DNA of 64,000 nt from Salinisphaera sp. T31B1 (GTDB taxonomy: Bacteria; Pseudomonadota; Gammaproteobacteria; Nevskiales; Salinisphaeraceae), in the NCBI RefSeq assembly GCF_040361275.1, contig NZ_APNH01000003.1, forward strand, positions 248,001 to 312,000, written 5' to 3'. This document shows, in pieces, positions 37,773-57,369 of the stretch. The position numbers and the translations under genes were made by a program. Each line of letters opens with the position of its first letter. Position 1 is the first letter of the stretch. The notes beneath the pieces are model-generated. The model saw only the letters and a program-made list of their open reading frames with translations. It had not been told where the DNA came from and did no database searches.

Positions 37773-38075
37773 ATGGCCGATCCGGTGGAACTGCCACAGT
37801 CTGATCATGACTGGGAAACCAGCAAGAATTCGCTGATCCGGCGTCTCAAGCGCGTCGAGGGCCAGGTGCGTGGTCTGCAGGCCATGCTCGAACGCGATGC
37901 CGAATGCGAGGATATCGCGGTGCAGATGTCGGCCGCGCGCAAGGCGCTGGATCGGACGTTCTACAACATGCTGTCGTGCGTGATCGAGCGCGAACTGTCC
38001 TGCTCGCATCTCGATTCCGCCGATGCCCGGGAACGGCTCAAGTACGCCACGGAGCTGCTCGCTCGCTATGGTTAG
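37773..38075 (+). CDS. CsoR/RcnR-family (DUF156) transcriptional repressor, likely sulfide/persulfide-responsive
   Basis: A protein of 100 residues, the all-helical CsoR/FrmR fold: LIRRLKRVEGQVRGLQAMLE is the DNA-contacting helix region and ECEDIAVQMSAARKALDR the sensor helix. Aligned to copper CsoR, the first cysteine (Cys45) is kept, but the metal-binding His is Val70 and the second Cys is Glu74. Instead Cys69 and Cys77 are present. This makes copper or nickel sensing unlikely and recalls CstR-type thiol switches. Nearby genes handle sulfide and persulfide, and a TACC-N6-GGTA palindrome lies between two of them. The ligand is inferred. Confidence 0.85.
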   Translation: MADPVELPQSDHDWETSKNSLIRRLKRVEGQVRGLQAMLERDAECEDIAVQMSAARKALDRTFYNMLSCVIERELSCSHLDSADARERLKYATELLARYG

Positions 38076-38377
38076 CGGTCCGGTTCTTCGGAACGGGACG
38101 CCAACGCCTGAACCCGCCAGTGGGGCCGACCCGTCCGGCTGGGTTTGTCGATATGAACGATCGTACAGGCTGACCGGCGACGGTCACGATTAGCTGACAA
38201 ACGCGCCATCCCCGGTTGCCGCAAGCGTGCCGGACACGAGTTCATCACGCGTGCGCGCGGTATCGATCAAGCCGACTGGCAAAACCGGGTGGATGGCTAT
38301 GCCTGTCGGTAATAGGCGTAGCAGCCGGATGTCGCGAGTCCAGCGGTCGGTCGACGGCTCCCGTCGCGCTATTCTGT
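38076..38377. other. Gap of about 300 bases between the CsoR-family gene and the YeeE/YedE genes
   Basis: It lies between convergent genes. An AACCC...GGGTT pairing at 38111-38145 followed by TTGT may act as a weak terminator. No reading frame of interest or RNA gene is evident. Confidence 0.5.
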
Positions 38378-38785
38378 TTACCGGAGCCGACGCATGAGGG
38401 CGCTACCGGCGATAAACGCCAAACCGAACCAGGCCGCCTCGCGCGGATTGAGTGCGAGAGCCGCCAGGGCCGGGCCCGGGCAATAGCCGGCCAGGCCCCA
38501 GCCGATGCCGAACAGTACGGCCCCGCCCAGCAGCGGCCGATCCACGCCTTGTCGAGACGGCGATTGAAACGTTGCCGCCAGCCACGGGTGTTTCAGGCGC
38601 CTGGATACGGCATAGGTCAGCCCGAACGCGGTCAGCGCGCCACCCATGACCAGGGCAAGACTCGGATCCCACGGGCCGACAATATCCAGAAACGCCAGAA
38701 CCTTGGTCGGATCGGCCATCTGCGACAGCCACAGGCCGGTACCGAACAGCCCGCCGGCTGCCATGGCCAGCAGATTCGTCTTCAT
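38378..38785 (-). CDS. YeeE/YedE-family sulfur transporter half (PmpB-like)
   Basis: A protein of 135 residues, about four membrane helices. The conserved GIGWGLAGYCPGPALAAL motif with its cysteine is the hallmark of the shorter YeeE/YedE partner (DUF6691). Full-length YeeE imports thiosulfate through a line of cysteines; split PmpA/PmpB pairs carry a similar role. The ATG overlaps the stop of the preceding half by four bases, so the two form a unit downstream of the SQR-like gene. Substrate (thiosulfate or another sulfane sulfur) is inferred. Confidence 0.85.
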   Translation of the reverse strand: MKTNLLAMAAGGLFGTGLWLSQMADPTKVLAFLDIVGPWDPSLALVMGGALTAFGLTYAVSRRLKHPWLAATFQSPSRQGVDRPLLGGAVLFGIGWGLAGYCPGPALAALALNPREAAWFGLAFIAGSALMRRLR

Positions 38786-39231
38786 GAGCCGATGCCCAGG
38801 ACGTGGCGTGTCAGCACCGCTGTCAGAATCCCGGCCAGCATGAACACCGCGGTGGCGGTCAGCGAGCGCCGCGAGCCCCGGCCGATACCGCAGACGCCGT
38901 GGCCGCTGGTGCAGCCATTACCCATGCGTGTACCGATGCCTACGAGTACGCCGGCGATCACCAGCCACACGGCGGGAAAACCCGCGCGTACAGACACGTG
39001 TTCGGGCCAGATCAGGCTGAAAACGGCCGCGCTAACGATCAATCCGGCCAGGAACCAGCCGCGCCAGGCGCTACCTGTCTCGCGTCCGACCAACGCATGC
39101 ACCATCCCCGATATACCCGCGATTCGGCCAAGGCCCAGCCACAGCAGGGCTGCAGCCGCGCCGATCAGCACACCCCCGGCGAGGGCGCTTATGGGGGTGA
39201 AGTCGACGACGCCGGTGAACAGGCCGATCAT
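38782..39231 (-). CDS. YeeE/YedE-family sulfur transporter half (PmpA-like)
   Basis: A protein of 149 residues, about four membrane helices, with the signature GTRMGNGCTSGHGVCGIGRGS containing two cysteines that would line the sulfur path. It lies 27 bases after the SQR-like flavoprotein and overlaps the second half gene, indicating one minus-strand operon (flavoprotein, PmpA-like, PmpB-like) under the divergent promoter at about 40.5 kb. It probably moves thiosulfate or another sulfur compound through the inner membrane. Confidence 0.86.
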   Translation of the reverse strand: MIGLFTGVVDFTPISALAGGVLIGAAAALLWLGLGRIAGISGMVHALVGRETGSAWRGWFLAGLIVSAAVFSLIWPEHVSVRAGFPAVWLVIAGVLVGIGTRMGNGCTSGHGVCGIGRGSRRSLTATAVFMLAGILTAVLTRHVLGIGS

Positions 39232-39258
39232 GGTTGGTTCCTATGGAAAACGGCCCGA

Positions 39259-40497
39259 TCATGCACTCAGATCCGGACGCGGTTTCGGCCGGGGCCAGTG
39301 CCAGTCGCGTCCCTTGAGCATGACGTGCCAGTACAGCCAGGGGAAAAACTGTGCCTTGAGCGGCCAGTGGATACGGCGCACCTTGCGCGGGTCGAGCGGA
39401 AAGCTGGAGACGACCTCACCGCCATAGCGGAATTCGGCGAGCAGTACCTTGCCATGGGCGACCGTCAACGGGCACGCGCCGTAGCCGTCGTAATCGTCGG
39501 CTGGCGACACGTTCTCGCCAAGTGCGCGGCGCAGCCCGGCGACCACCACGGGGAACTGGCGACGGATCGCAGCCATGGTCTTGGCGTTCGGCGTGTCGGT
39601 ACAGTCGCCCAACGCGAACACGTTGTCGTAACGGCTATGGGTGAGCCGATTCTTATCGACGCTGACCCAGCCCGCGTCCCCTGCCAGCGAGCTGTGCTTG
39701 ATCACGTCCGGTGCCGATTGCGGGGGCACGACATGCAGCATCTCGAAGCCGCGTGTGACGTGCCCGTCGTCGGTATCGAACGTGGCTTCACGGCGGTCGC
39801 CGTCGACGGCGATCAGCGAATGCTTGAAATACGGTGTCGCCCCGTAGCCGGCGATCACCTTGTCGAGCTCGCGTGCATAGGCCGGTACGCCGAACATCGC
39901 GCCGCCCTGATTGTAGAACGCGACTTCGGCTTTCACGTCGCGCTTTCTCAGGGTGGCCGCGGTCAAATACAATGCTTTCTGAGGTGCGCCCGCACACTTG
40001 ATCGGCATCGCGGGTTGGGTAAACAGTGCCCGGTCGCCGTCTTTGAGCGATTGGGCCAGCTCGTGGGTATAGGGTGCGAGATCGAATCGGTAATTCGAGG
40101 TAACGCCGTTACGGCCCAGCGTCTGTTTCAGGCCGTCGATTGCGCCCCAATCCAGCTGCAGGCCGAGGGCGACGACCAGGAAGTCGTAGGTCACGGCCGC
40201 GCCAGAGGCCAGATCGACCCGATTCGCGTCGGGATCGAAGCCGGCCACCGTATCGCGAATCCAGTGAGCCTTGGCAGGCATCACATCGGCCTCGGCGCAT
40301 CGGGTGGCCTCTGCGCGCATATCGCCGCCGCCGACGAGCGTCCAGCCTGGCTGGTAATAGTGATCGCGACTCGGTTCGATGACGGCGACGTCGAGCGACG
40401 GATCGGCCTTGAGCAGGGCCGCCGCCACCGGAATACCGGCCGTACCACCGCCGGCGATCACGACGCGATGATGTAGGGAGGTCGCTGAATCGGTCAT
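39259..40497 (-). CDS. FAD-dependent sulfide:quinone oxidoreductase-like protein
   Basis: A protein of 412 residues. The N-terminal dinucleotide fold is VVIAGGGTAGIPVAAAL, and the late FAD motif is NVFALGDCTDTPNAKT. Cysteines expected for type II SQR appear in PIKCAGAPQKALYL and YGACPLTV. A C-terminal stretch with PWLYWHVMLKG may bind the membrane. It would oxidise sulfide to persulfide or polysulfide and pass electrons to quinone. The operon continues to the YeeE/YedE pair and its promoter shares a palindrome with the divergent persulfide-dioxygenase gene, supporting this role. Confidence 0.85.
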   Translation of the reverse strand: MTDSATSLHHRVVIAGGGTAGIPVAAALLKADPSLDVAVIEPSRDHYYQPGWTLVGGGDMRAEATRCAEADVMPAKAHWIRDTVAGFDPDANRVDLASGAAVTYDFLVVALGLQLDWGAIDGLKQTLGRNGVTSNYRFDLAPYTHELAQSLKDGDRALFTQPAMPIKCAGAPQKALYLTAATLRKRDVKAEVAFYNQGGAMFGVPAYARELDKVIAGYGATPYFKHSLIAVDGDRREATFDTDDGHVTRGFEMLHVVPPQSAPDVIKHSSLAGDAGWVSVDKNRLTHSRYDNVFALGDCTDTPNAKTMAAIRRQFPVVVAGLRRALGENVSPADDYDGYGACPLTVAHGKVLLAEFRYGGEVVSSFPLDPRKVRRIHWPLKAQFFPWLYWHVMLKGRDWHWPRPKPRPDLSA

Positions 40498-40510
40498 GGC
40501 TTGCTCGATC

Positions 40511-40538
40511 TTGCTGTGAATACCCTATAGGGTATAAT
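40511..40538 (+). promoter_or_regulatory. Sigma-70-like promoter of the persulfide-dioxygenase gene
   Basis: TTGCTG (40511-40516) and TATAAT (40533-40538) are separated by 16 bases. The palindromic operator occupies the spacer and enters the -10 box, so binding there would block polymerase. The start codon lies 86 bases downstream. Confidence 0.6.
40520..40535. promoter_or_regulatory. Perfect 16-base palindrome, probable CsoR-family operator
   Basis: ATACCCTATAGGGTAT is its own reverse complement. It lies in the short gap between the divergent SQR-like and persulfide-dioxygenase genes, with an A/T centre and G/C-rich arms as in CsoR/CstR-type operators. The regulator gene lies 2.4 kb away, at 37773. 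Confidence 0.7.
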
Positions 40539-40623
40539 CCATATCCACCGCTATTTGCAAATGACTCGCCGGCAGGCGCCGATCGGCGTCTGCCAGCGAA
40601 CACCGACATCGGGACACAAGACC

Positions 40624-41484
40624 ATGACACGACCGGAAGTCGTCGGATTCTTCGATCGGAAGACCTTCAGCGTTCAATATATCTGTATCGATATCGAGTC
40701 AGGACGCTGTGCCATCATCGATCCGGTGCTCAACTACGACGAGGCGTCAGCCACCACGAGCACCGAGTCGGCGGACGAGATCGCTACGTTTGTCAAAAAG
40801 CGCGGGCTGACCGTCGACTGGATCCTGGATACCCACCCGCACGCCGACCATCTGTCGGCCGCTTTCTATCTGCAGGGTATATTCGATGCCCCCCGCGGTA
40901 TCGGCGAGCATGTGATCGACGTTCAGAAGCTCTGGAAGAATATCTACAACTTCGGAGACGACTTCAAAACCGACGGCCGGCAGTGGGATCGGCTGTTCGC
41001 CGACGGCGACACGTTCACCGTCGGCAACCTCGATGCACGAGTGATGCACTCGCCGGGCCATACCCTGGCCTCGATCACCTACGTGATCGGCGACGCCGCG
41101 TTCGTGCACGACACGCTGTTCCAGCCTGATTTCGGCACCGCGCGCGCCGATTTCCCCGGCGGCGATGCGGCCACGCTGTATCGCTCGATCCAGGCGATTC
41201 TCGAACTGCCCGACGACACGCGGCTGTTCACCGGTCACGACTACATGCCGGACGGCCGCGAGCCGCGCTGGGAATCCACGGTCGCCGAGCAGCGTGCAAA
41301 CAACCCGCACCTGCAGGACATCGACGAAGCGGCATACGTTGCGCTGCGTAATAAACGCGATGCCGAGCTGCCGTTGCCCGCACTCATGCTGGCCGCGCTG
41401 CAGATCAACACCCGCGGCGGACGCCTGCCGGAGCCTGAAGACAACGGCACTGCCTATCTCAAGATACCGCTCGACCGGTTCTAG
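40624..41484 (+). CDS. MBL-fold persulfide dioxygenase-like hydrolase
   Basis: A protein of 286 residues from ATG 40624. The metal site motif is THPHADH, followed by HSPGHTLASITY, an aspartate in FVHDTLFQPDFG and FTGHDY. These are typical of ETHE1/Blh-type beta-lactamase-fold enzymes that oxidise glutathione persulfide to sulfite. It is divergent from the SQR-like gene, the two activities being consecutive in sulfide oxidation. The TTG/ATG frames upstream of 40624 are ignored because they cross the promoter. Confidence 0.86.
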   Translation: MTRPEVVGFFDRKTFSVQYICIDIESGRCAIIDPVLNYDEASATTSTESADEIATFVKKRGLTVDWILDTHPHADHLSAAFYLQGIFDAPRGIGEHVIDVQKLWKNIYNFGDDFKTDGRQWDRLFADGDTFTVGNLDARVMHSPGHTLASITYVIGDAAFVHDTLFQPDFGTARADFPGGDAATLYRSIQAILELPDDTRLFTGHDYMPDGREPRWESTVAEQRANNPHLQDIDEAAYVALRNKRDAELPLPALMLAALQINTRGGRLPEPEDNGTAYLKIPLDRF

Positions 41485-41511
41485 TCACGGTCGTTGTACC
41501 GGTACGACGCC

Positions 41512-42066
41512 CTATTGAGGGACCAGCGCGTAACCCCGTTCGCCGTAGATGACCAGATCGCTGAGTGCAGACAGCGCGACGTCCACGTCGTCGTCCACCC
41601 ACGACTGATCGAACGCGTGTTCGGCGAGTGCCTGGCCACAGACATGTACGGTGACGCCTGCCTTGCGTAGGGCGGCGATCAGCGCGGTATTGGGGTTGGC
41701 CTGTCCGAACTGCTCCTGGTATTGCGCGTCATTGAGGATACTGGGTGTCGCCGGCCCGTGGACCACGGCCACGAAGTCGAGTTTGTCGACGGGCACGCCG
41801 GCCGAGGCGAATACGTTGACCGCCCGCGCGACGTGTTCCAGACCCGGATTCGGCTGATCGGGGCTTTTCGCTGCCTTGGTCACATCGAACACGGCCTTGT
41901 GCCGGGCATCCGTCGAGGGCTGGTTGACGGCATCCGGCAGCGGCTTGATCCCGCCATAATCCTTGATCGCCGGATATTGCCAGCCGCCCCCCGCGGCCCA
42001 CGCGGGCACAGACCCGGCCAGCAACAAACTGAAGATAATCAGGGCCACACGAAATATCCTCTTCAC
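41512..42066 (-). CDS. Periplasmic DsrE-like protein
   Basis: A protein of 184 residues from GTG 42066, with AAGGAG about seven bases upstream; the ATG at 42090 has no such site. The N-terminus is a signal peptide (RVALIIFSLLLAGSVPAWA). The mature part carries FVAVVHGPATPSIL and VHVCGQALAEH, the DsrE/F-like fold with one conserved cysteine. Cytoplasmic relatives carry persulfide sulfur; secreted ones are often next to sulfide oxidation genes. It converges on the persulfide-dioxygenase gene with a 27-base gap. Confidence 0.75.
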   Translation of the reverse strand: MKRIFRVALIIFSLLLAGSVPAWAAGGGWQYPAIKDYGGIKPLPDAVNQPSTDARHKAVFDVTKAAKSPDQPNPGLEHVARAVNVFASAGVPVDKLDFVAVVHGPATPSILNDAQYQEQFGQANPNTALIAALRKAGVTVHVCGQALAEHAFDQSWVDDDVDVALSALSDLVIYGERGYALVPQ

Positions 42067-42545: not shown

Positions 42546-43340
42546 TCAGGGTTTAGGCCCCAGAATTTTCTCTACGTCGTCGCCGCGCGGCATGCCCTGT
42601 TTGAGGCCGATATCGCCATTGGCCTTGCGATAGAGAATGGTCGGCGTGGCGAAATAACCCAGCGCCTCCATGAGGCTGTTGTTGTCCAGGATCTTGTCGC
42701 GGGCGGCGTCGGGGATATCCTCGGCGATATCGATACCGCCGCTGGCATAGTTGCGTTCCTGGCGTTCGAGCGCGGCTTCCGGATCGTCTGCGCCCACGAT
42801 CGTCGCTGCCTTGGGCACACTGTCGGCCTTGAGAATGCCGACCATCACGTGACGGATCTGAACCTCGCCGGCTTCGACCCAGGGCCGCGCCGTTTGCCAG
42901 AACTGGTTGCAGTAAGGGCAGTTCGGATCGGTGATCTCGTAGACGATACGCGGCGCGTCTGCCTTGCCATCGCGAATCCATGTGGCTTTGCCGAGCTGTT
43001 CCCAGGCTTTCTCGTTCTGCGGGCCGGACGCGATTCGCTCCAGGGGTTCGGCGGTGAGATTGTTGCCGTTTTCGTCCACCAACGTGCCCAGTACCGCGTG
43101 TTGGCCGTCTTCGGTGACATAGATCGCCATCGGACGGCCCTGGAATGTTGCGGCATAGCCCCGCAGGCCGCCGGGGGCATCGAACGGCCCGAGAATCTCC
43201 AGGCCGCGATCGGCCATGGCTACCACGGGCGCGGGCGGGTCGGTCTTGTCCTCCGGGGCGGACCAGGCCACCAGGGCGTAGGCGCCGATCGCCACCGCGG
43301 CGATCATGCCGATGATCGGCAGTCGTAGATTTCGGGTCAT
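42546..43340 (-). CDS. dsbG: Thiol:disulfide interchange protein DsbG
   Basis: A protein of 264 residues. A signal anchor begins it, then the DsbC/DsbG dimerisation part. The thioredoxin domain has the active site NCPYCNQFW and cis-proline FATPTILY. DsbG keeps single cysteines of periplasmic proteins reduced or isomerises disulfides, receiving electrons from DsbD. The ATG overlaps the upstream TlpA-fusion stop by four bases, so it is the third gene of a dsbD operon. Confidence 0.9.
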   Translation of the reverse strand: MTRNLRLPIIGMIAAVAIGAYALVAWSAPEDKTDPPAPVVAMADRGLEILGPFDAPGGLRGYAATFQGRPMAIYVTEDGQHAVLGTLVDENGNNLTAEPLERIASGPQNEKAWEQLGKATWIRDGKADAPRIVYEITDPNCPYCNQFWQTARPWVEAGEVQIRHVMVGILKADSVPKAATIVGADDPEAALERQERNYASGGIDIAEDIPDAARDKILDNNSLMEALGYFATPTILYRKANGDIGLKQGMPRGDDVEKILGPKP

Positions 43341-44188
43341 GGTTGCTCCGAGTCGTCGTTGGAAGAAGCGGCGGTGGCGAAGCGTTCGAGCGCCGCTGTG
43401 AGGGTCGCGCGCGACAGCTGGCCGAGATGGCTGTCGACCAGCCGACCGTCGCCGTCGTAGAACAGGGTCGTGGGCAGCGCGACCGAGCCGGCCTGCTGGG
43501 CGAGGCGCCCGCCGGGGTCGCGGACGACGTGATCGAGCGCCAGCCCCTGGCCGTCGAGGAATCGCTGGATGGTCGGCGCGGCTTCGGCCTGGTTCGCGAA
43601 CACGAACAGCACGTCATCGCGTGCCGCCTGGGCGGCCTCGAGTACCGGCATCTCGGCCCGGCAGGGCGGGCACCAGGTCGCCCATAGATTGACGACCACG
43701 GGACGGCCGTCGGCTTGTGCCTGCAGGGCGGCCAGATCGGTCTGCTGGCCATCGAGGGTGGTCAGCGCGGCATCCGGCAGCCGGCTGGCCTCGTGCTCGA
43801 TCAATGACAGCGCCCCGCCGGTCAGCCCCCAGGTCAATGCACCGGCCACCAGCGCCGCGCCCAGCGGCCGACGCAATACAGGCCGGCGCCGCATGACCAG
43901 CGCGGCATAGAACGCCATGCCGATCAGCCCGCCGACCGCGTCGAAGCCGCCGTCGCGAATATCGATCACGCCGATCGGCTGATCGCGATATTCGCCCAGA
44001 TAACGCAGCACGAAGATCACGCGTGCGGCGACTACGCCCACCAGCGCGAGGTTGAACAACGTGTCGCTGATCGGCACATCGCGCCGCCGGGCGGCGAGCT
44101 TGCCCGCGATCAGGGCCGCGACGAGCGCGACGATCATCAAGGCGTGGGCCACCGACAGCGCGAACGGCCCGACGGAAAACGACAGCAT
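43337..44188 (-). CDS. Lgt-like membrane domain fused to TlpA-type thioredoxin
   Basis: A protein of 283 residues. Residues 1-135 are four membrane helices with GVVAARVIFVLRYLGEYRDQ and GGFDAVGGLIGM, resembling part of prolipoprotein diacylglyceryl transferase (Lgt) but shorter, so transferase activity is unlikely. Residues 140-283 form a periplasmic thioredoxin domain with NLWATWCPPCRAEMPVL. It probably passes electrons from DsbD to a periplasmic target. The start overlaps the dsbD stop by one base and the end overlaps dsbG. I infer the topology from hydrophobicity alone. Confidence 0.85.
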   Translation of the reverse strand: MLSFSVGPFALSVAHALMIVALVAALIAGKLAARRRDVPISDTLFNLALVGVVAARVIFVLRYLGEYRDQPIGVIDIRDGGFDAVGGLIGMAFYAALVMRRRPVLRRPLGAALVAGALTWGLTGGALSLIEHEASRLPDAALTTLDGQQTDLAALQAQADGRPVVVNLWATWCPPCRAEMPVLEAAQAARDDVLFVFANQAEAAPTIQRFLDGQGLALDHVVRDPGGRLAQQAGSVALPTTLFYDGDGRLVDSHLGQLSRATLTAALERFATAASSNDDSEQP

Positions 44189-46011
44189 CAGGATTCACCA
44201 CCGGATTGATGGGCGCGGGCCCAATGATCGAGAAACGCCTCGGCGTCCAGTTCACCGACGATACGTGCGGCGCGGCGTTCCCGGCCATCCGGGCCGATCA
44301 ACAGGATCGTCGGCGGGCCGACCACCCCGAAACGGCGCATCAGTTCGCGATCGGCCGTATCGTTGTCGGTGACATCCGGGCGCAATAGCTCGACATCGGC
44401 CAGCGCGCGCTGGACATCGGCATCGCCGAAGACTTCTTTTTCGATCACCTTGCACGAGACACACCAGTCGGCATAGAAATCGACCAGGGTCCAGCGGCCG
44501 TCCTGGGCGGCGCTGGCTACCTTGTCGTCCAGATCATCGAGATCGGCCACGTTGTCGAAGCGGGCCATGAATCCCTGTGCCTCGCCCGGCCCGGCATCGG
44601 AGGTGACAGCGGACAGGCCCGCGAACGCCAGCGGCTGGCTCAGGCTGTCGTTACCGGCCGCGCCGCCGATGATGAGCAGCCCGCCCCACAGCCCGACGAT
44701 CGATCCGGCCACGCATGCGGTCATCGCCGCTGGTCGCGGCGTCGACGACGCGGACACGCCCAGTTGGTACAACGTCATGCCGGCGGCCATGGTCAGCACA
44801 CCGGCGCCGACCATGGTCCAGTGATCGGGAATCACCCGCGCGATGAACCACAGCGCCATACCCAGCAGTACGAAGCCGAACACCACCTTGACGCCGGTCA
44901 TCCACGGCCCGGGTCGCGGCAACAGATGTGCGCCGAGGCTGCCGACCGCGACCAGCGGCGCGCCCATGCCCAGGCCTAGAGAGAACAAGGCCGCGCCGCC
45001 GAGCCACACGTTGCCGGAATCGGCGATATACAGCAGGGCGCCGGCCAGCGGCGCAGTCATGCAAGGGCCGACGACGAGCGCGGACAGCCCGCCCATGAGT
45101 GCTGCGCCGCCCAGGCTGCCGCCGCGCTGATCGGCGCTGGCACTCTGGAGTCGATCGCGCAACGGCGCGGGCAGCTGCAGTTCGTAGAAACCGAACATCG
45201 CCAAGGCCAGCGCGATGAAGATCGCCGCGAATACCCCGAGCACCGTCGGCGTCTGCAGCCAGGCCTGGAGATTCGCCCCCGCCAGGGCAGCGGCGACGCC
45301 GAGTAGCGCATAGACCACGGCCATGGGCAGCACATAAGCCAGCGACAGCGCGAACCCCCGGCCGCTGCGCGCGTCACTGCCCACGATCAGGCTGGTCAGG
45401 ATCGGCAGCATGGGCAGTACGCAGGGGGTGAACACCAGCAGCACGCCGAGGCCGAAGAACACGGCCAGCACCCAGCCGGTATCGGCGTCGGCCAGACGTG
45501 CGGACAGCTGCTGGTCTTCAGCCAGCGATGTCGCGCCGGCGGCGATCGACTGGTCAGCGCCGTGCCCGGCCGTTGCCGCCACGCCGTCAAGTTCGATGCT
45601 TGCATGCTGCGGCGGATAGCAAAGCCCGGCTTCGGCGCAACCTTGCCAACCCAGGTCGATCGTGCGGGCCGTGCCGGGGTCGATGGTCGCGGCCACCTGA
45701 TCGTGGTAGACCTCCGAGTCGCCGAAGAACTCGTCGGATATCGGCTTGCCGTGCGGCAGCGTGACGCCGGCGATCGGCGTGGGTTTGCCGTCGAATGCGA
45801 ACTGATGCCGATACAGATAGTAGCCGGGGGCGATGTCCCATGTGACGGTGAGGGTGCCGTCGTCGTGGCGCGTCACGTCGTGAGTGAATGCCTGGGCGGC
45901 GCTCAGGAAATCGTCTCCGGCGGCCGAGCCCTGGGCGAAGCCCACACCTGATGTCATCACGCCGGCGAGCAGCGTGGCGAACAGCGTCGCGAAGATGAAC
46001 ATGCGTCTCAT
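44188..46011 (-). CDS. dsbD: Thiol:disulfide interchange protein DsbD
   Basis: A protein of 607 residues from ATG 46011. After a signal peptide, the alpha domain has WQGCAEAGLCYPP. Eight membrane helices carry the cysteines FTPCVLPMLPIL and VVGPCMTAPL. The C-terminal thioredoxin has DWCVSCKVIEKEVF. It moves electrons from cytoplasmic thioredoxin to the periplasm. The operon continues to the TlpA fusion and dsbG. It is divergent from a two-component system 127 bases away, as in P. aeruginosa PA2476-PA2480, where the same set of families occurs. Confidence 0.95.
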   Translation of the reverse strand: MRRMFIFATLFATLLAGVMTSGVGFAQGSAAGDDFLSAAQAFTHDVTRHDDGTLTVTWDIAPGYYLYRHQFAFDGKPTPIAGVTLPHGKPISDEFFGDSEVYHDQVAATIDPGTARTIDLGWQGCAEAGLCYPPQHASIELDGVAATAGHGADQSIAAGATSLAEDQQLSARLADADTGWVLAVFFGLGVLLVFTPCVLPMLPILTSLIVGSDARSGRGFALSLAYVLPMAVVYALLGVAAALAGANLQAWLQTPTVLGVFAAIFIALALAMFGFYELQLPAPLRDRLQSASADQRGGSLGGAALMGGLSALVVGPCMTAPLAGALLYIADSGNVWLGGAALFSLGLGMGAPLVAVGSLGAHLLPRPGPWMTGVKVVFGFVLLGMALWFIARVIPDHWTMVGAGVLTMAAGMTLYQLGVSASSTPRPAAMTACVAGSIVGLWGGLLIIGGAAGNDSLSQPLAFAGLSAVTSDAGPGEAQGFMARFDNVADLDDLDDKVASAAQDGRWTLVDFYADWCVSCKVIEKEVFGDADVQRALADVELLRPDVTDNDTADRELMRRFGVVGPPTILLIGPDGRERRAARIVGELDAEAFLDHWARAHQSGGES

Positions 46012-46138
46012 GCCGTCATGGTTCCGGCCCGAAGTGGCCGAGCGATGCTCGAACGCCGGTATTAAGTCAGAATTAACGACGGGCAGGGTGCGACGCTTCA
46101 TACCCGCTTAATCCGGCCCGTGATAATCGAGCCCAGCC

Positions 46139-49531: not shown

Positions 49532-50626
49532 TCAGGGTTTGCCTGTCCTGGGTACGGTGCCCGCCGGCGGCGCGTTTTCGCCGAGCACGCGGCCGTTGAC
49601 GGTCTTGCCGTACATCGACTGCTTGCCGTGATATTTCTCGGCGGTTTCGGCGACCGAGCCGTTGAAGCGCGGATCCTGGGGGCGCGGCTGGCTGTCGATG
49701 TACTGGGCCACGTCCCAGGCCTGCTGGTCGCTCAGGGTGGCAGCACCTAGCGGCATATTGGCCTTGATGAACCCGGCGGCGGTATTTACTCGGTGCATGC
49801 CCGCGCCCCAGTTGAACGAGCGCGCCCCCCACAGCGGCGGGAAGGCGATGCTGCCGTCGGCCGCACGCTGACCCTGGCCGTCACTGCCGTGACAGAGCGC
49901 GCAATGGGTTTCGAAGACCTTCTCTCCACGCGCATAGCTCGGCGGCTGCTCGGGTTCGTCGAGTTTCGGGTAGCCGGCGCCCGGCATCTTCTTGCCCACC
50001 GGCGCGCCGCTGGCCAACCAGTAGGCATAGGTCTGCAGTGCAGTGAGCACGTCGTCGCCGCGCGGCGGGGCGGTGCCGTTCATGCTGTAGCGGAAACAGC
50101 CCTGGATCCGCTCGGCGAAGTCGTTGACGTGCTTGTTCTTGCCGCGATACGCCGGATACATGCCCCATGCAGCCCATAGCGGCGCCGAGTCGGCCAGCCG
50201 CCCGGCATCCAGATGACAGTTGGCACACTGCAGATCGTTGCCGACGAACGGGCCCGCATGCTGCTGGGTGTTCGTGAAGATCTGTTCGCCCTTGCGCACC
50301 ATCGCGCCGAACTCGTTGTCGGGTATCGCATCGCGGGCGGGGGGCGAGAACACGGCGGTGTCGTCCTCGTTCGGGTCACTCGTGGCGGGCTGAGCGGTGG
50401 CCGGTGCGTCGGCCTTGTCCGCAGGCGCTTCGTCGGCCGTGGCCGGCGGATGGTCCTTGGTCTTGTTGATTGTCTGGGCGCCAGCATTGGCCTTGGCCGG
50501 GCTCGTGACCGGGCCGGTCTGACTCGCGGCCGTGCGATCGTCGGCATGGCTTGCCACCCACACGATCACCGCCGCTAGCAGGAAAAAGGACACGGCCACG
50601 GTCAGCAGCGGGATACGGCTACTCAT
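49532..50626 (-). CDS. tsdA: Thiosulfate dehydrogenase TsdA (di-haem cytochrome c)
   Basis: A protein of 364 residues. A membrane anchor/signal (LLTVAVSFFLLAAVIVWVA) is followed by a disordered Ala/Pro/Asp-rich stretch to about residue 95. Two haem c sites are CANCH and CALCH. RIQGCFRYSMNGTAPP carries the cysteine that ligates the first haem in TsdA enzymes. The enzyme joins two thiosulfates into tetrathionate or works in reverse. The gene follows tsdB, with the AAGGAG site inside the tsdB end. The long linker is unusual. Confidence 0.92.
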   Translation of the reverse strand: MSSRIPLLTVAVSFFLLAAVIVWVASHADDRTAASQTGPVTSPAKANAGAQTINKTKDHPPATADEAPADKADAPATAQPATSDPNEDDTAVFSPPARDAIPDNEFGAMVRKGEQIFTNTQQHAGPFVGNDLQCANCHLDAGRLADSAPLWAAWGMYPAYRGKNKHVNDFAERIQGCFRYSMNGTAPPRGDDVLTALQTYAYWLASGAPVGKKMPGAGYPKLDEPEQPPSYARGEKVFETHCALCHGSDGQGQRAADGSIAFPPLWGARSFNWGAGMHRVNTAAGFIKANMPLGAATLSDQQAWDVAQYIDSQPRPQDPRFNGSVAETAEKYHGKQSMYGKTVNGRVLGENAPPAGTVPRTGKP

Positions 50627-51290
50627 GTTCGTCTCCTTCGGTCTTGTGGGTAGCGGGTGTCTGTGCGGCGAAATACGCGGCGACCGGCGCCAGGTCGTCG
50701 TCGTGCAGCTGGCTGGCGATGGATGCCATCAATCCCATGGGCCCGCCGGGGCGCTTGCCGGTGCGCCAGGCGCGCAACTGAGCTTCGATATAGCCGGCGG
50801 GCTGGCCGGCCAGAGGCGGGAAGTACTCACCGACCCCGACGCCGGCCGGTCCGTGGCACTGTACGCACGCCGGTATCCCGTCGGCCCAGCGGCCGTGTTC
50901 GGCCAGCGCGGTGCCCGCCGCCGGAATATCGCCGGTATCGGTGCCTGTGCTTCGGGCGGTCGGAACCGGCAGCCGGCTGTAGTAAACAGCCATCGCCTGC
51001 CGCTGCTCGTCGGACATCGCGCCTGCGATCGGCATCATCACCGCGTTGGCGCGCTGACCCGAGGCAAACGCATCCAGTTGTTCGGCGAGATATGTTTTAC
51101 CCAGACCGGCCAGGCGGGGAAATCCCGCGGCCGAATTGCCGCCGCCGTCGGCGCCATGGCAACTGCTGCACGGGGCAATCTTGTCGCCGAGGCCCTGCTT
51201 GGCGATCGACGCGGCGTCGGGCGAGGCTGCGTGGGTGGCGACAGGTAACAGAAAAAGGGTCGTTATGACCGCTTGTAGAATCCGTCTCAT
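50619..51290 (-). CDS. tsdB: Di-haem cytochrome c4-like electron partner TsdB
   Basis: A protein of 223 residues with a cleavable signal peptide (FLLPVATHAAS) and two c-type haem sites, CSSCH and CVQCH, in the cytochrome c4-like double-domain layout (GFPRLAGLGKTYLAEQLDAF and YFPPLAGQPAGYIEAQLRAW). In TsdBA systems TsdB accepts electrons from TsdA and passes them to the terminal oxidase. It overlaps tsdA by eight bases and is divergent from the TauE/SafE exporter gene across a 143-base gap. Confidence 0.88.
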   Translation of the reverse strand: MRRILQAVITTLFLLPVATHAASPDAASIAKQGLGDKIAPCSSCHGADGGGNSAAGFPRLAGLGKTYLAEQLDAFASGQRANAVMMPIAGAMSDEQRQAMAVYYSRLPVPTARSTGTDTGDIPAAGTALAEHGRWADGIPACVQCHGPAGVGVGEYFPPLAGQPAGYIEAQLRAWRTGKRPGGPMGLMASIASQLHDDDLAPVAAYFAAQTPATHKTEGDEHE

Positions 51291-51433: not shown

Positions 51434-52264
51434 ATGGCCATACTGTTCGGCATCATCGTGGGACTCGCGCTGGGGTTGACCGGTGGCGGCGGATCGATAT
51501 TCGCGGTGCCGCTGTTGATTTACGGCCTCGGCGTGGCGCCGGCCAGTGCGGTGGCGATCTCGCTGGGCGCCGTCGCGATCACCGCGGCGTTCGGGGCCGC
51601 CGAGGGCCTGTATCGCGGTGTCGTCGAGCTGCGGGCCGCGCTGATCTTCGCCGTGGCCGGCATGGTGGCCGCGCCGCTGGGCGTATATATCGGCGGCCGG
51701 GTGAGCGATACGGTGGTGGTGCTGTTGTTCGCCGGGCTGATGATCGTCGTGGCTGTCCGCATGGGCTTGAAGGCGCGGCGTACGCCGGATGAATCCGCGG
51801 TCGTACGGGCTCGTTTTGCCGAACAGGCGACGGCCGATCCCGGAACGGTGTGTCGCTACAGCGGCGACGGCCGGCTTCGTCTGAATGCGCCCTGTAGCGC
51901 GGCCCTGGCCGCAGTCGGGCTGGTCGTGGGCGTGTTGTCGGGCTTTTTCGGGGTCGGCGGCGGTTTCCTGATCGTGCCGGCGCTGATCCTGATCACCGAA
52001 ATGGGTATCCACCGAGCGGTGGCGACATCGTTGCTCGTGATTACCTTGATCGGGCTGTCGGGAGTGGCCTCGGCGATGTTTTCCGGCCGCGAGATCGACT
52101 GGGCGCTGACCGCGCTGTTCGTTGTGGGCGGCGTGCTGGGCATGGCCGGCGGTCGCCGGTTGGCCCGTCACCTGGCCGGGCCGCGGTTGCAGTGGCTGTT
52201 TGCGGCTGCAATGCTCGCGACCGCCGGTTTCATTATCGTCGAACGCCTGTTGTTCGGCGGTTGA
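51434..52264 (+). CDS. TauE/SafE-family sulfite/anion exporter
   Basis: A protein of 276 residues of eight or so membrane helices in two repeated halves, the first beginning LFGIIVGLALGLTGGGGSIFAVPLL and the second LVVGVLSGFFGVGGGFLIVPALIL. These Gly-rich repeats are typical of TauE/SafE, which exports sulfite, sulfoacetate or related anions. Its place divergent from tsdBA suggests removal of sulfite made in sulfur oxidation. It has an AT-rich promoter region just before it. Confidence 0.88.
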   Translation: MAILFGIIVGLALGLTGGGGSIFAVPLLIYGLGVAPASAVAISLGAVAITAAFGAAEGLYRGVVELRAALIFAVAGMVAAPLGVYIGGRVSDTVVVLLFAGLMIVVAVRMGLKARRTPDESAVVRARFAEQATADPGTVCRYSGDGRLRLNAPCSAALAAVGLVVGVLSGFFGVGGGFLIVPALILITEMGIHRAVATSLLVITLIGLSGVASAMFSGREIDWALTALFVVGGVLGMAGGRRLARHLAGPRLQWLFAAAMLATAGFIIVERLLFGG

Positions 52265-54651: not shown

Positions 54652-55785
54652 CTAGTAGGCGTGTTCGTCGTGTTCGATGGTTTCCGGGGTGACCTTGCCG
54701 CGCATGACCCAGAACGCCCAGCTGGTATAGATCGCAACGATCGGGATGAAGATGGCGGTGAACACCAGCATCCAGCCCAGCGTGGTCGCGCTCGACGAGG
54801 CGTCCCATACGGTCAGGCTGTGTCCGGGGTTCGTCGACGACGGCATGAGGAACGGGAACATCGCCGTGCCCACGGTGCCGATCGTGCCGGCCCAGGCCAG
54901 CGCGCCCAGCCACCAGCTGGCATGCGACCAGCCGCGGCGAGCACAGGCGATGCCGGCCAGCACGGCGGCATACACCAGCCCCGGTACCAGCCACAGCAGC
55001 GGGTAGGCAGCAAAATTATTCAGCCAAGCGCCGGAAACCATGTCGACGGTCTTGCGCAGCGGCATCGCCGGGCCGGCCGGGTCGGCTCCGCCGGCGATCA
55101 CATAACCGGGCATGAACCATACCCACAGCCCGCAGACCGTGAACAGCACGACGGCGGCAAGCCCGGCCATCGTGAGCAGTTTAGCCGCGCGCTCGCGGAT
55201 CACGCCCGTGCCGCGGTTCATCACCATGGCACTGCCCTGATAGAGCGCGAGCGCGATCGACATCAGCCCGCAGAGCACCGCGAACGGGTTGAACAGCGCG
55301 ATGAAGCTGCCGGTGTAGTAGGACACCATGTTCCACTCGAAGTGAAAGGGCACCCCGCGCAGCATGTTGCCCATGGCCGCGCCGAACACGATCATCGGCA
55401 CCGCGCCGGAAACGAACAGCGCGGTATCCCACACGCCGCGCCAGCGCAGCGAGGGCAGCTTGCTGCGGTACTCGAAGCCCAGCGGACGCACGATCATGCT
55501 CCACAGCAGCACGAGCATGACGACATACAGCCCGGAAAAGGCGGTGGCATAGATCGTCGGCCAGGCCGCGAACACCGCACCGCCGCCGAGAATGAACCAC
55601 ACCTGATTGCCGTCCCAGTGCGGGGCGATCATGTTGATCACCGCGCGGCGCTCGCCGTCGGTACGCCCCAGGTAGCGCAGGCCTGCGCCGACGCCCATGT
55701 CCATGCCGACCATCACGGCCAGGCCGATCAGCAGCACGCCGAGCAGTGCCCACCAGACGAGCTTGAGAACGATATAGATTTCCAT
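54652..55785 (-). CDS. cydB: Cytochrome bd ubiquinol oxidase subunit II
   Basis: A protein of 377 residues with about nine membrane helices. It begins with LKLVWWALLGVLLIGLAVMVGMDMGVGA and has HWDGNQVWFILGGGAVFAAWP, conserved in CydB. It forms the oxidase with CydA. The start lies three bases after the cydA stop and the gene is followed by the cydX-like gene. Confidence 0.96.
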   Translation of the reverse strand: MEIYIVLKLVWWALLGVLLIGLAVMVGMDMGVGAGLRYLGRTDGERRAVINMIAPHWDGNQVWFILGGGAVFAAWPTIYATAFSGLYVVMLVLLWSMIVRPLGFEYRSKLPSLRWRGVWDTALFVSGAVPMIVFGAAMGNMLRGVPFHFEWNMVSYYTGSFIALFNPFAVLCGLMSIALALYQGSAMVMNRGTGVIRERAAKLLTMAGLAAVVLFTVCGLWVWFMPGYVIAGGADPAGPAMPLRKTVDMVSGAWLNNFAAYPLLWLVPGLVYAAVLAGIACARRGWSHASWWLGALAWAGTIGTVGTAMFPFLMPSSTNPGHSLTVWDASSSATTLGWMLVFTAIFIPIVAIYTSWAFWVMRGKVTPETIEHDEHAY

Positions 55786-55788
55786 GGC

Positions 55789-57369
55789 TTAAGCCTCGCT
55801 CCACTGCGACGTGTGGCCGGGGCCGACAACGGTGGCCGCGGCGGGCGGGCCGTCGTCCGGCCCTTTCTTGATGAATTTCACCATCAGGAACATCTCGACG
55901 ATGATGAACAGGGTGTAGATCGCCACGAATCCCGACAGCGAGAAGATCATGTAGCCCACGCTGTGCGTCGATGCCGAGATCCAGGTCGGCAGCTGGCCGT
56001 AGACCGTCCACGGCTGGCGGCCGAGCTCGGCGACCACCCAGCCGGCCTCGTTGGCGATGAAGGGCACGGGGATCATCCACGGCGCGATCTTGAGGAACAT
56101 GCGCTTGTCGGTGATCTGTCCGCGCAGCGAATAGATCGTGGCCAGGATCAGGAAACCGAGCATCAGGAATGCCGCAGCGACCATGATCCGGAACGACCAG
56201 AACACCGGCCCCACGGGCGGAATGGTGTCGCGTGCCGCCTGGGTGATCTGTTCCGGCGTCGCCTGGGTGACATCGGGGGCATAGCGCTTGACCAGCAACG
56301 CATAGCCGAGGTTGTCGCCGTGGCTGCGGAACGTACGCAGGGCGTCGCGATCGTTCGGGTTGTGGCTGAGCGTTTCCAGGGCCGCGAGTGCTGGAATACC
56401 GTCGCGGATCCGGGTCTCGGCGCGGTGGACCAGATCGTGCGCGCCGGGAATCGTGCCGTCGAAACTATGGGTGACCAGCGGCGTGAGCACGTAGGGAATC
56501 TGCAGCTCGAAGCGATTCTCCATCGCCTGCTGATCCGGCCAGGCGACCACGTTGAAGCCGGCCGGCGCCTCGGCGGTTTCCCACAGGCCTTCCATGGCAA
56601 CCAGCTTGTTGGGCTGGCCTTCGCCGCTGATGAAGCCGAGCGCGTCGCCCAGACAGATCACGCCGATACTGGCGAATACGCCGAACAGCGCCGCGACCCG
56701 GAACGAGCGCACGGCGATCGCCATGTGGCGCTTGCGCAACATATAGAACGCGCTGATGCCGATCACGAAGATGGCCGCGGTCAGAAAACCCGCCACGCTG
56801 GTATGCACGAACTTGGCCTGGGCATCGTGGCTGAAGAACAGCGCGGTGAAGCTGTCCAGCTCCATGCGCATGGTGGCCGGATTGAAGGTCGAGCCGACCG
56901 GATGCTGCATGTAGGCGTTGGCCACCAGAATCCACAGCGCCGAGAGATTCGAGCCGAGCGCGACCATATAGGTCACCAGCAGATGCTTGCCGCGGGAGAG
57001 CTTGTCCCAGCCGAACAGCATCAGGCCGACGAAGGTCGATTCCAGGAAAAAGGCCATCAGGCCTTCGATCGCCAGCGGCGCGCCGAAGATGTCGCCGACG
57101 AAATGCGAGTAGGTCGACCAGTTGGTGCCGAACTCGAACTCCATGGTCAGCCCGGTGGCCACGCCGAGCGCGAAGTTGATCGCGAACAGCTTCGACCAGA
57201 ACTGGGTCATCTGGCGATAGACCTCGCGGCCGCTGATGACGTAGATGGTCTCCATCGTCGCCAGCAGCACGGCCAGGCCGAGCGTGAGCGGTACGAACAA
57301 ATAGTGATAGAGCGCGGTCGCGGCAAACTGCGTGCGCGAGAGCGCGATGACGGTTTCCAGTTCCTGCAT
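55789..57369 (-). CDS. cydA: Cytochrome bd ubiquinol oxidase subunit I
   Basis: A protein of 526 residues. The haem-ligand histidine is in TALYHYLFVPLTLGL, another in FVHTSVAGFLTAA, and WVVAELGRQPWTVYGQL is the family motif after the quinol loop. The loop is of the short type. The enzyme reduces oxygen with high affinity and makes proton motive force without pumping. An FNR box lies 84 bases upstream. Confidence 0.97.
   Translation of the reverse strand: MQELETVIALSRTQFAATALYHYLFVPLTLGLAVLLATMETIYVISGREVYRQMTQFWSKLFAINFALGVATGLTMEFEFGTNWSTYSHFVGDIFGAPLAIEGLMAFFLESTFVGLMLFGWDKLSRGKHLLVTYMVALGSNLSALWILVANAYMQHPVGSTFNPATMRMELDSFTALFFSHDAQAKFVHTSVAGFLTAAIFVIGISAFYMLRKRHMAIAVRSFRVAALFGVFASIGVICLGDALGFISGEGQPNKLVAMEGLWETAEAPAGFNVVAWPDQQAMENRFELQIPYVLTPLVTHSFDGTIPGAHDLVHRAETRIRDGIPALAALETLSHNPNDRDALRTFRSHGDNLGYALLVKRYAPDVTQATPEQITQAARDTIPPVGPVFWSFRIMVAAAFLMLGFLILATIYSLRGQITDKRMFLKIAPWMIPVPFIANEAGWVVAELGRQPWTVYGQLPTWISASTHSVGYMIFSLSGFVAIYTLFIIVEMFLMVKFIKKGPDDGPPAAATVVGPGHTSQWSEA

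Follow-up and report, generated by a model that had tools for sequence, protein, structure and literature searches.

Gene content of the module

We examined a 64,000-nt stretch of the genome of the salt-tolerant bacterium Salinisphaera sp. T31B1 (4.36 Mb, 9 contigs; contig NZ_APNH01000003.1, positions 248,001 to 312,000), hereafter the window, in which a regulator of the CsoR/DUF156 family lies beside genes for the handling of sulfide and persulfide. A preliminary description of this DNA had proposed a sulfide/persulfide module made up of a DUF156 repressor, a flavoprotein like sulfide:quinone oxidoreductase (SQR), a PmpAB-like transporter, an enzyme like persulfide dioxygenase (PDO) and a periplasmic DsrE-like protein. 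All five kinds of gene were recovered as a cluster, and the module was supported by its gene content and by the context of related regulators. To that description the analysis adds a probable operator, an operon-like order of sqr, pmpA and pmpB, and the retention of C69 across a whole clade. The features are as follows.

37773-38075, plus strand: CsoR/DUF156-family regulator, 100 aa (PF02583, 71.6 bits; cut-off 22.8)
38378-38785, minus strand: PmpB-like half transporter, DUF6691 (PF20398, 124 bits)
38782-39231, minus strand: PmpA-like half transporter (Sulf_transp, 25.2 bits, just below the Pfam cut-off of 27)
39259-40497, minus strand: SQR (phmmer to 6mp5/6oi5, E ~1e-94)
40520-40535, no strand: probable operator ATACCCTATAGGGTAT, a perfect palindrome of 16 bp between the divergent sqr and pdo
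40531-40536, minus strand: TATACC, probable -10 of sqr-pmpA-pmpB (from sequence and alignment)
40533-40538, plus strand: TATAAT, probable -10 of pdo, overlapping the right half of the operator (read from sequence)
40553-40562: ATTTGCAAAT, holding TTGCAA, the probable -35 of sqr (from sequence and alignment)
40624-41484, plus strand: persulfide-dioxygenase-like protein of the metallo-beta-lactamase fold, pdo (PDB 9g8t, E 2e-96; NF040641, 505 bits)
41512-42066, minus strand: DsrE-family protein with a Cys in VHVCGQ (PF02635, 42.5 bits)
42546-46101, minus strand: DsbG, an LGT-TlpA fusion and DsbD, periplasmic thiol genes adjacent to the module (profile matches)

The regulator gene starts 90 bp downstream of ssb and is convergent to sqr-pmpA-pmpB, which look like one operon because sqr and pmpA are 27 bp apart and pmpA and pmpB overlap by 4 bp; pdo is divergent from sqr. 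Homologues of the PmpA-like protein adjoin the regulator in other loci of its clade. The nearest solved relative of the SQR was human SQOR, and a phmmer alignment matched the cysteines of its IKCAGAPQK and YGACPLT stretches with SQOR cysteines, which we take to be the catalytic ones; the enzyme is presumably of type II. The pdo product resembles the C-terminal part of Blh without the N-terminal part (NF040641 positions 141-423; 505 bits, below the cut-off of 625), and the DsrE-family protein carries an apparent signal peptide, as judged by eye.

A separate clade with relocated cysteines

The profile match, a three-helix fold and a Cys at the start of helix 2 place the regulator in the CsoR/RcnR (DUF156, PF02583) superfamily, and its all-helical fold sets it apart from the winged-helix ArsR proteins BigR and SqrR. 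An AlphaFold monomer (predicted local distance difference test 87, predicted template modelling score 0.70) had helices at 9-40, 45-75 and 82-99, with C45 at the start of helix 2, C69 in its last third and C77 just past its end, and the first Foldseek matches of this model were CsoR 4uig, CstR 7mq1 and FrmR 5lcy. In a profile alignment to solved structures, C45 coincided with the first Cys of CstR and CsoR, V70 and E74 stood at the Asn and Cys of S. pneumoniae CstR and at the His and Cys of S. lividans CsoR, and C69 fell on a Glu in both. This upheld the earlier claim that of the CsoR ligands only Cys45 is kept, with Val70 and Glu74 replacing His and Cys.

We weighed on this basis whether the protein could be a metal (Cu, Ni, Co) or formaldehyde sensor merely placed beside sulfur genes. 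Such a sensor would have the same fold and the same Cys45, and NCBIfam gave weak matches to RicR (46 bits, cut-off 175), FrmR (35, cut-off 133) and RcnR (25, cut-off 138). The copper pattern Cys-x24-His-x3-Cys is nonetheless broken (C45, V70, E74), the helix-2 metal positions lack the His of RcnR/InrS (H and H in E. coli RcnR), and residue 2 is Ala, whereas the FrmR hallmark is Pro2 with Cys (PMC5016687). C-H-H is retained in both of the genome's other DUF156 proteins, and no frmA-like or metal-efflux protein was found among the 19 region proteins scanned with Pfam. Four loci of the clade do adjoin RND/MFP efflux genes, but with pmpAB within 5 kb of the regulator in 38 of 46 clade loci we consider this explanation very improbable.

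A profile built from 11 regulators was used to search genomes of the order, class and phylum, and it matched in 45/85 (E 1e-10), 13/369 (E 1e-14) and 13/398 (E 1e-18) genomes, respectively; four of the 13 class matches are C-H-C CsoR proteins (L122-L125). In the resulting tree of 134 rows after removal of duplicates, for which the tool warned of few columns and long branches meeting, the regulator fell within a 60-row clade (support 100/96, branch 1.19). A further branch (100/94) set this clade, together with 16 of 17 CstR-type rows (Asn, Cys), apart from the CsoR-type rows (His, Cys). Of the seven closest regulators, five came from Salinisphaera records and one each from records labelled Endozoicomonas sp. 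G2_2 (L005) and Lysobacterales SP48 (L006). We rejected membership of CstR, both on the tree and on cysteine position: the second Cys of CstR lies at +29 (Cys31/Cys60), where the window protein has Glu74, its own extra cysteines being Cys69 (+24) and Cys77 (+32). A CstR-like way of working was retained, the position of the gene among sulfide and persulfide genes with a CstR-type operator agreeing with that of CstR. Outside the clade, a Cys at +24 was also observed in L021 (Kaiserbacteria) and L038 (Bacillota).

Cys69 was present in 55/60 clade rows, replaced by Ser69 with Cys77 in two rows (three genomes: L006, L009 and L010), and absent along with Cys77 in three (L151, L201 and L202). Outside this genus, Cys77 was seen in L146 alone, a member of another family. 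Within the genus the regulator occurred in 9 of 14 genomes, among which C45 and C77 were found in 9/9 and C69 in 6/9, the three Ser69 genomes keeping Cys77. Judged from these sequences, constraint differs between the two extra cysteines. Both had been described as new, which merges two histories: Cys77 looks like a local gain, and Cys69 is old in the clade and was lost in three genomes of the genus.

Probable operator and gene neighbourhoods

ATACCCTATAGGGTAT was the single occurrence in the window at ≤3 mismatches (0.01 expected) and was unique in the genome at ≤2 mismatches. Its form ATACCC-N4-GGGTAT recurred at the same spot of the sqr/pdo gap in 8/8 aligned same-genus loci, window included; the ninth genome with the regulator (G078, L004) is outside the alignment, its sequence ending before sqr. 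Because the palindrome lies in the divergent gap, one site could control both sqr-pmpA-pmpB and pdo, and because its right half overlaps both putative -10 elements, one bound repressor could silence all four genes. We also considered ATTTGCAAAT, which is exact in L005, L006, L009 and L010, as a second operator, and rejected this, since the genome holds a single copy and the -35 of sqr is the better reading.

A search of 58 loci (642 kb) with the shorter motif ATAC-N8-GTAT recovered 55 sites, where base composition predicts 2.3; 47 of the 58 hold at least one site, and six scrambled half-site controls yielded 1-4 sites each over the same loci. The motif was found within 5 kb in 39/46 clade loci, 13/17 CstR-type loci and 4/41 CsoR-type loci. 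Outside the genus, 36/44 clade loci had a site no more than 400 bp ahead of the regulator gene (loci L126-L152, L157-L171, L177 and L178 compared); L169 has one site at sqr/PDO and L148 one before pmpA. Upstream of the window's own regulator gene no such site was found, so the regulator may not autoregulate here. A genome-wide regulon based on this motif was dropped, as the 24 sites found, compared with 12 for the reversed control, indicated that the degenerate form is not selective in this genome. In L011 (1-1221 and 1397-1418) a clade regulator adjoins a putative cytochrome bd subunit I gene, as judged by eye, with the operator between them, and this oxidase may be a target of the regulator.

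Neighbourhoods were compared by tblastn in the 46 of 61 clade rows flanked by 3 kb or more on each side, the 15 with short flanks being dropped; the queries came from the window and from clade members, which favours the clade, and kinship was ignored in the counts. Within 5 kb, clade loci held pmpAB in 38, PDO in 25, SQR in 9, TauE in 16 and any of pmpAB, PDO or SQR in 39, whereas none of these genes was found in 41 CsoR-type loci, and the 17 CstR-type loci held PDO in 7, TauE in 1 and pmpAB and SQR in none. DUF6691 was present in 44/45 genomes of the order with the regulator versus 25/40 without it (Fisher p 3e-5, kinship ignored), and in the genus in 8/9 with the regulator (not G079) and 0/5 without. 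Among individual loci, L239 holds TauE and PDO, and L240 and L241 hold pdo with an operator in front, that of L241 cut by the edge; DUF2892 was seen in L243 and, next to RND/MFP genes, in L012, L013, L238 and L242. A YgaV/BigR-like ArsR gene flanks pmpAB in 3/30 pmpB loci. Two of these, L206 and L208, are among the 12 pmpB loci whose genomes lack the regulator; the third, L226, is an additional pmpAB copy of G065, whose regulator sits elsewhere.

Cysteine conservation and neighbourhood together bear on the idea that Cys45 alone senses, through a persulfide or mixed disulfide, with Cys69 and Cys77 structural or incidental. C45 is the only Cys invariant in 66 aligned rows (57 clade and 9 CstR-type), three genomes of the genus carry Ser69, and three clade rows have Cys at 45 only among the positions compared. 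Set against this are the 55/60 clade rows with C69 and the finding that the three rows lacking both partners, two of which are sisters, have no sulfur gene of the query set nearby (in L236 and L237, which lack C69 and C77, no query-set gene besides the regulator was found), yet six C69 rows are likewise without pmpAB, PDO and SQR. We regard sensing by Cys45 alone as unlikely; it would contest the bridging step only, leaving a sulfane-sulfur-responsive repressor in place.

Predicted persulfide switch

From the genes, operator-like site, synteny, clade and residue positions described above, we infer a scheme of repression, ligand, cross-link and release. The regulator would be a CsoR-fold, probably tetrameric repressor working like CstR, whose reduced form would bind ATACCCTATAGGGTAT, cover both -10 regions and silence sqr-pmpA-pmpB and pdo together. 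Rising sulfane sulfur (low-molecular-weight persulfide or polysulfide) would persulfidate Cys45, which would then bridge to a Cys of the partner protomer near the end of helix 2, and the bridged form would release the DNA, allowing SQR to oxidise sulfide, the dioxygenase to oxidise persulfide and PmpAB to move sulfur across the membrane. We give a sulfane-sulfur-responsive repressor acting at the sqr/pdo site a probability of roughly 0.78.

The bridging of Cys45 to a relocated partner is a step that we favour by a narrow margin. For most of the clade the partner would be Cys69; in the window protein it would be Cys69, Cys77 or both, and where position 69 is Ser it would be Cys77. The bridge would join protomers, because C45 and C69 are ~36 A apart along one helix by arithmetic, and the position sum 45+69=114, compared with 115-119 for the known site, fits a C69' level in height with C45. 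In FrmR the conserved helix-2 Cys meets residues 60 and 64 of the partner helix 2 (PMC5016687). A three-cysteine relay has been reported for FisR (PMC9774590), and the cysteines of the window regulator may instead work in this way. The earlier proposal of a thiol switch with a cysteine pair unlike that of CstR is supported in so far as a differently placed second Cys is conserved across a clade whose loci mostly hold pmpAB, often PDO, and share a CstR-type operator; the pairing and the persulfide ligand are predictions.

Several observations weigh against the predicted switch. On an ideal helix, C69 points ~100-140 degrees off the V70/E74 face on which the second Cys of CstR sits, C77 lies beyond the modelled end of helix 2, and C69 is Ser in 3/9 same-genus genomes. 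Seven of 46 clade loci have no operator, and a promoter scan gave no sigma-70 site at its threshold. pmpAB, PDO and SQR are all absent from 7/46 clade loci (L012, L013, L137, L149, L150, L151 and L152), all of which but L151 have C69; DUF6691 occurs without the regulator in 25 genomes of the order; and L012, L013, L238 and L242 lie beside RND/MFP efflux genes, as would also fit a metal sensor. Finally, the Thermus regulator TTHA1953 was unresponsive to NaHS in vitro (PMC10318464).

The same source bears on a general thiol or oxidant sensor, in which peroxide, HOCl or electrophiles would lead Cys45 and Cys69 or Cys77 to form an ordinary disulfide, persulfide being just one of the inducers: H2O2 and Cu(II) weakened DNA binding by TTHA1953, with dimers linked by disulfides, whereas NaHS did not. 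The Dsb thiol genes adjoining the module point the same way, but the recurrent neighbours across the clade are pmpAB, PDO and SQR (no search for peroxidases was made), and we judge such a sensor decidedly unlikely beside the sulfane-sulfur-responsive repressor.

Beyond the module, DsbG, LGT-TlpA and DsbD are candidate regulon members by position; Dsb/TlpA genes adjoin pdo also in L005, L009 and L010, and were not found within 3.9 kb beyond pdo in L007. DsrE gave no match in the L009 and L010 loci. Further along the window lie a SoxA/TsdA-like cytochrome (49535-50626), a cytochrome c with two matched stretches (50622-51290), TauE (51434-52264) and a cytochrome bd oxidase (54655-57369), and the wider region including these genes looks like a thiosulfate/sulfide island. 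PADLOC returned no match. In L008 (4667-10129, Salinisphaera sp. GH4), sqr is apparently split by ~5 kb holding a second, inverted sqr.

In Firmicutes, CstR links Cys31 and Cys60 between protomers by a di- to tetrasulfide (PMC9774590), and YrkD of B. licheniformis, a sensor of sulfane sulfur, is a repressor of sqr and pdo (PMC9918477). The window regulator resembles both in fold, first Cys, ATAC-N8-GTAT-type site and, by gene position, sulfide-oxidation targets, and differs in the spacing of the second Cys (+24, and +32 here, against +29), in its separate clade and in having pmpAB as its core neighbour, which none of the 17 CstR-type loci has. TTHA1953, which regulates Sox genes, is a two-cysteine CsoR-family protein that binds DNA less well when disulfide-linked (PMC10318464); a two-cysteine switch and sulfur-oxidation targets (both predicted here) are common to the two proteins, but the C39/C68 spacing of TTHA1953 is the 29 of CstR, its targets are far from its own gene, and its DNA motif, reported as unlike those of other family members, sets it apart by description. 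BigR controls yeeE-yedE-pdo2 (PMC7315123), the same kind of genes as in the window, through the unrelated winged-helix fold of ArsR-type BigR/PigS, whose place a CsoR-fold protein takes here. With FrmR, RcnR and CsoR the regulator shares the three-helix DUF156 fold and the conserved Cys, but it lacks the metal His/Cys and Pro2 and has other neighbours. PmpAB-like proteins have been reported to take up zero-valent sulfur (PMC11582611).

The sensing mode had been called possibly undescribed, and no such clade is described among the literature matches listed; as these cover neither Fakhoury 2021 (10.1093/nar/gkab1040), the main paper on CsoR-family persulfide sensors, nor Luebke 2014, its novelty is uncertain. 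Tentatively, and at somewhat less than even odds, the clade may represent a second, separately wired persulfide switch, with a proteobacterial Cys45-Cys69' (+24) bridge whose partner is moving in Salinisphaera from Cys69 to Cys77 (+32), the C69-only, three-Cys and C77-only stages being present in related lineages. If this is true, a persulfide sensor would have arisen on the CsoR scaffold with its cysteines arranged otherwise than in the known one and with a partner cysteine that can migrate, and CsoR-fold control would operate in Proteobacteria, a group in which the controller described for such genes is the ArsR-type BigR/PigS. The local regulon can be predicted from the conserved operator, and the natural C69/C77 variants would provide a ready set for asking what separates persulfide from metal and formaldehyde sensors, and a natural test of sensor evolution.

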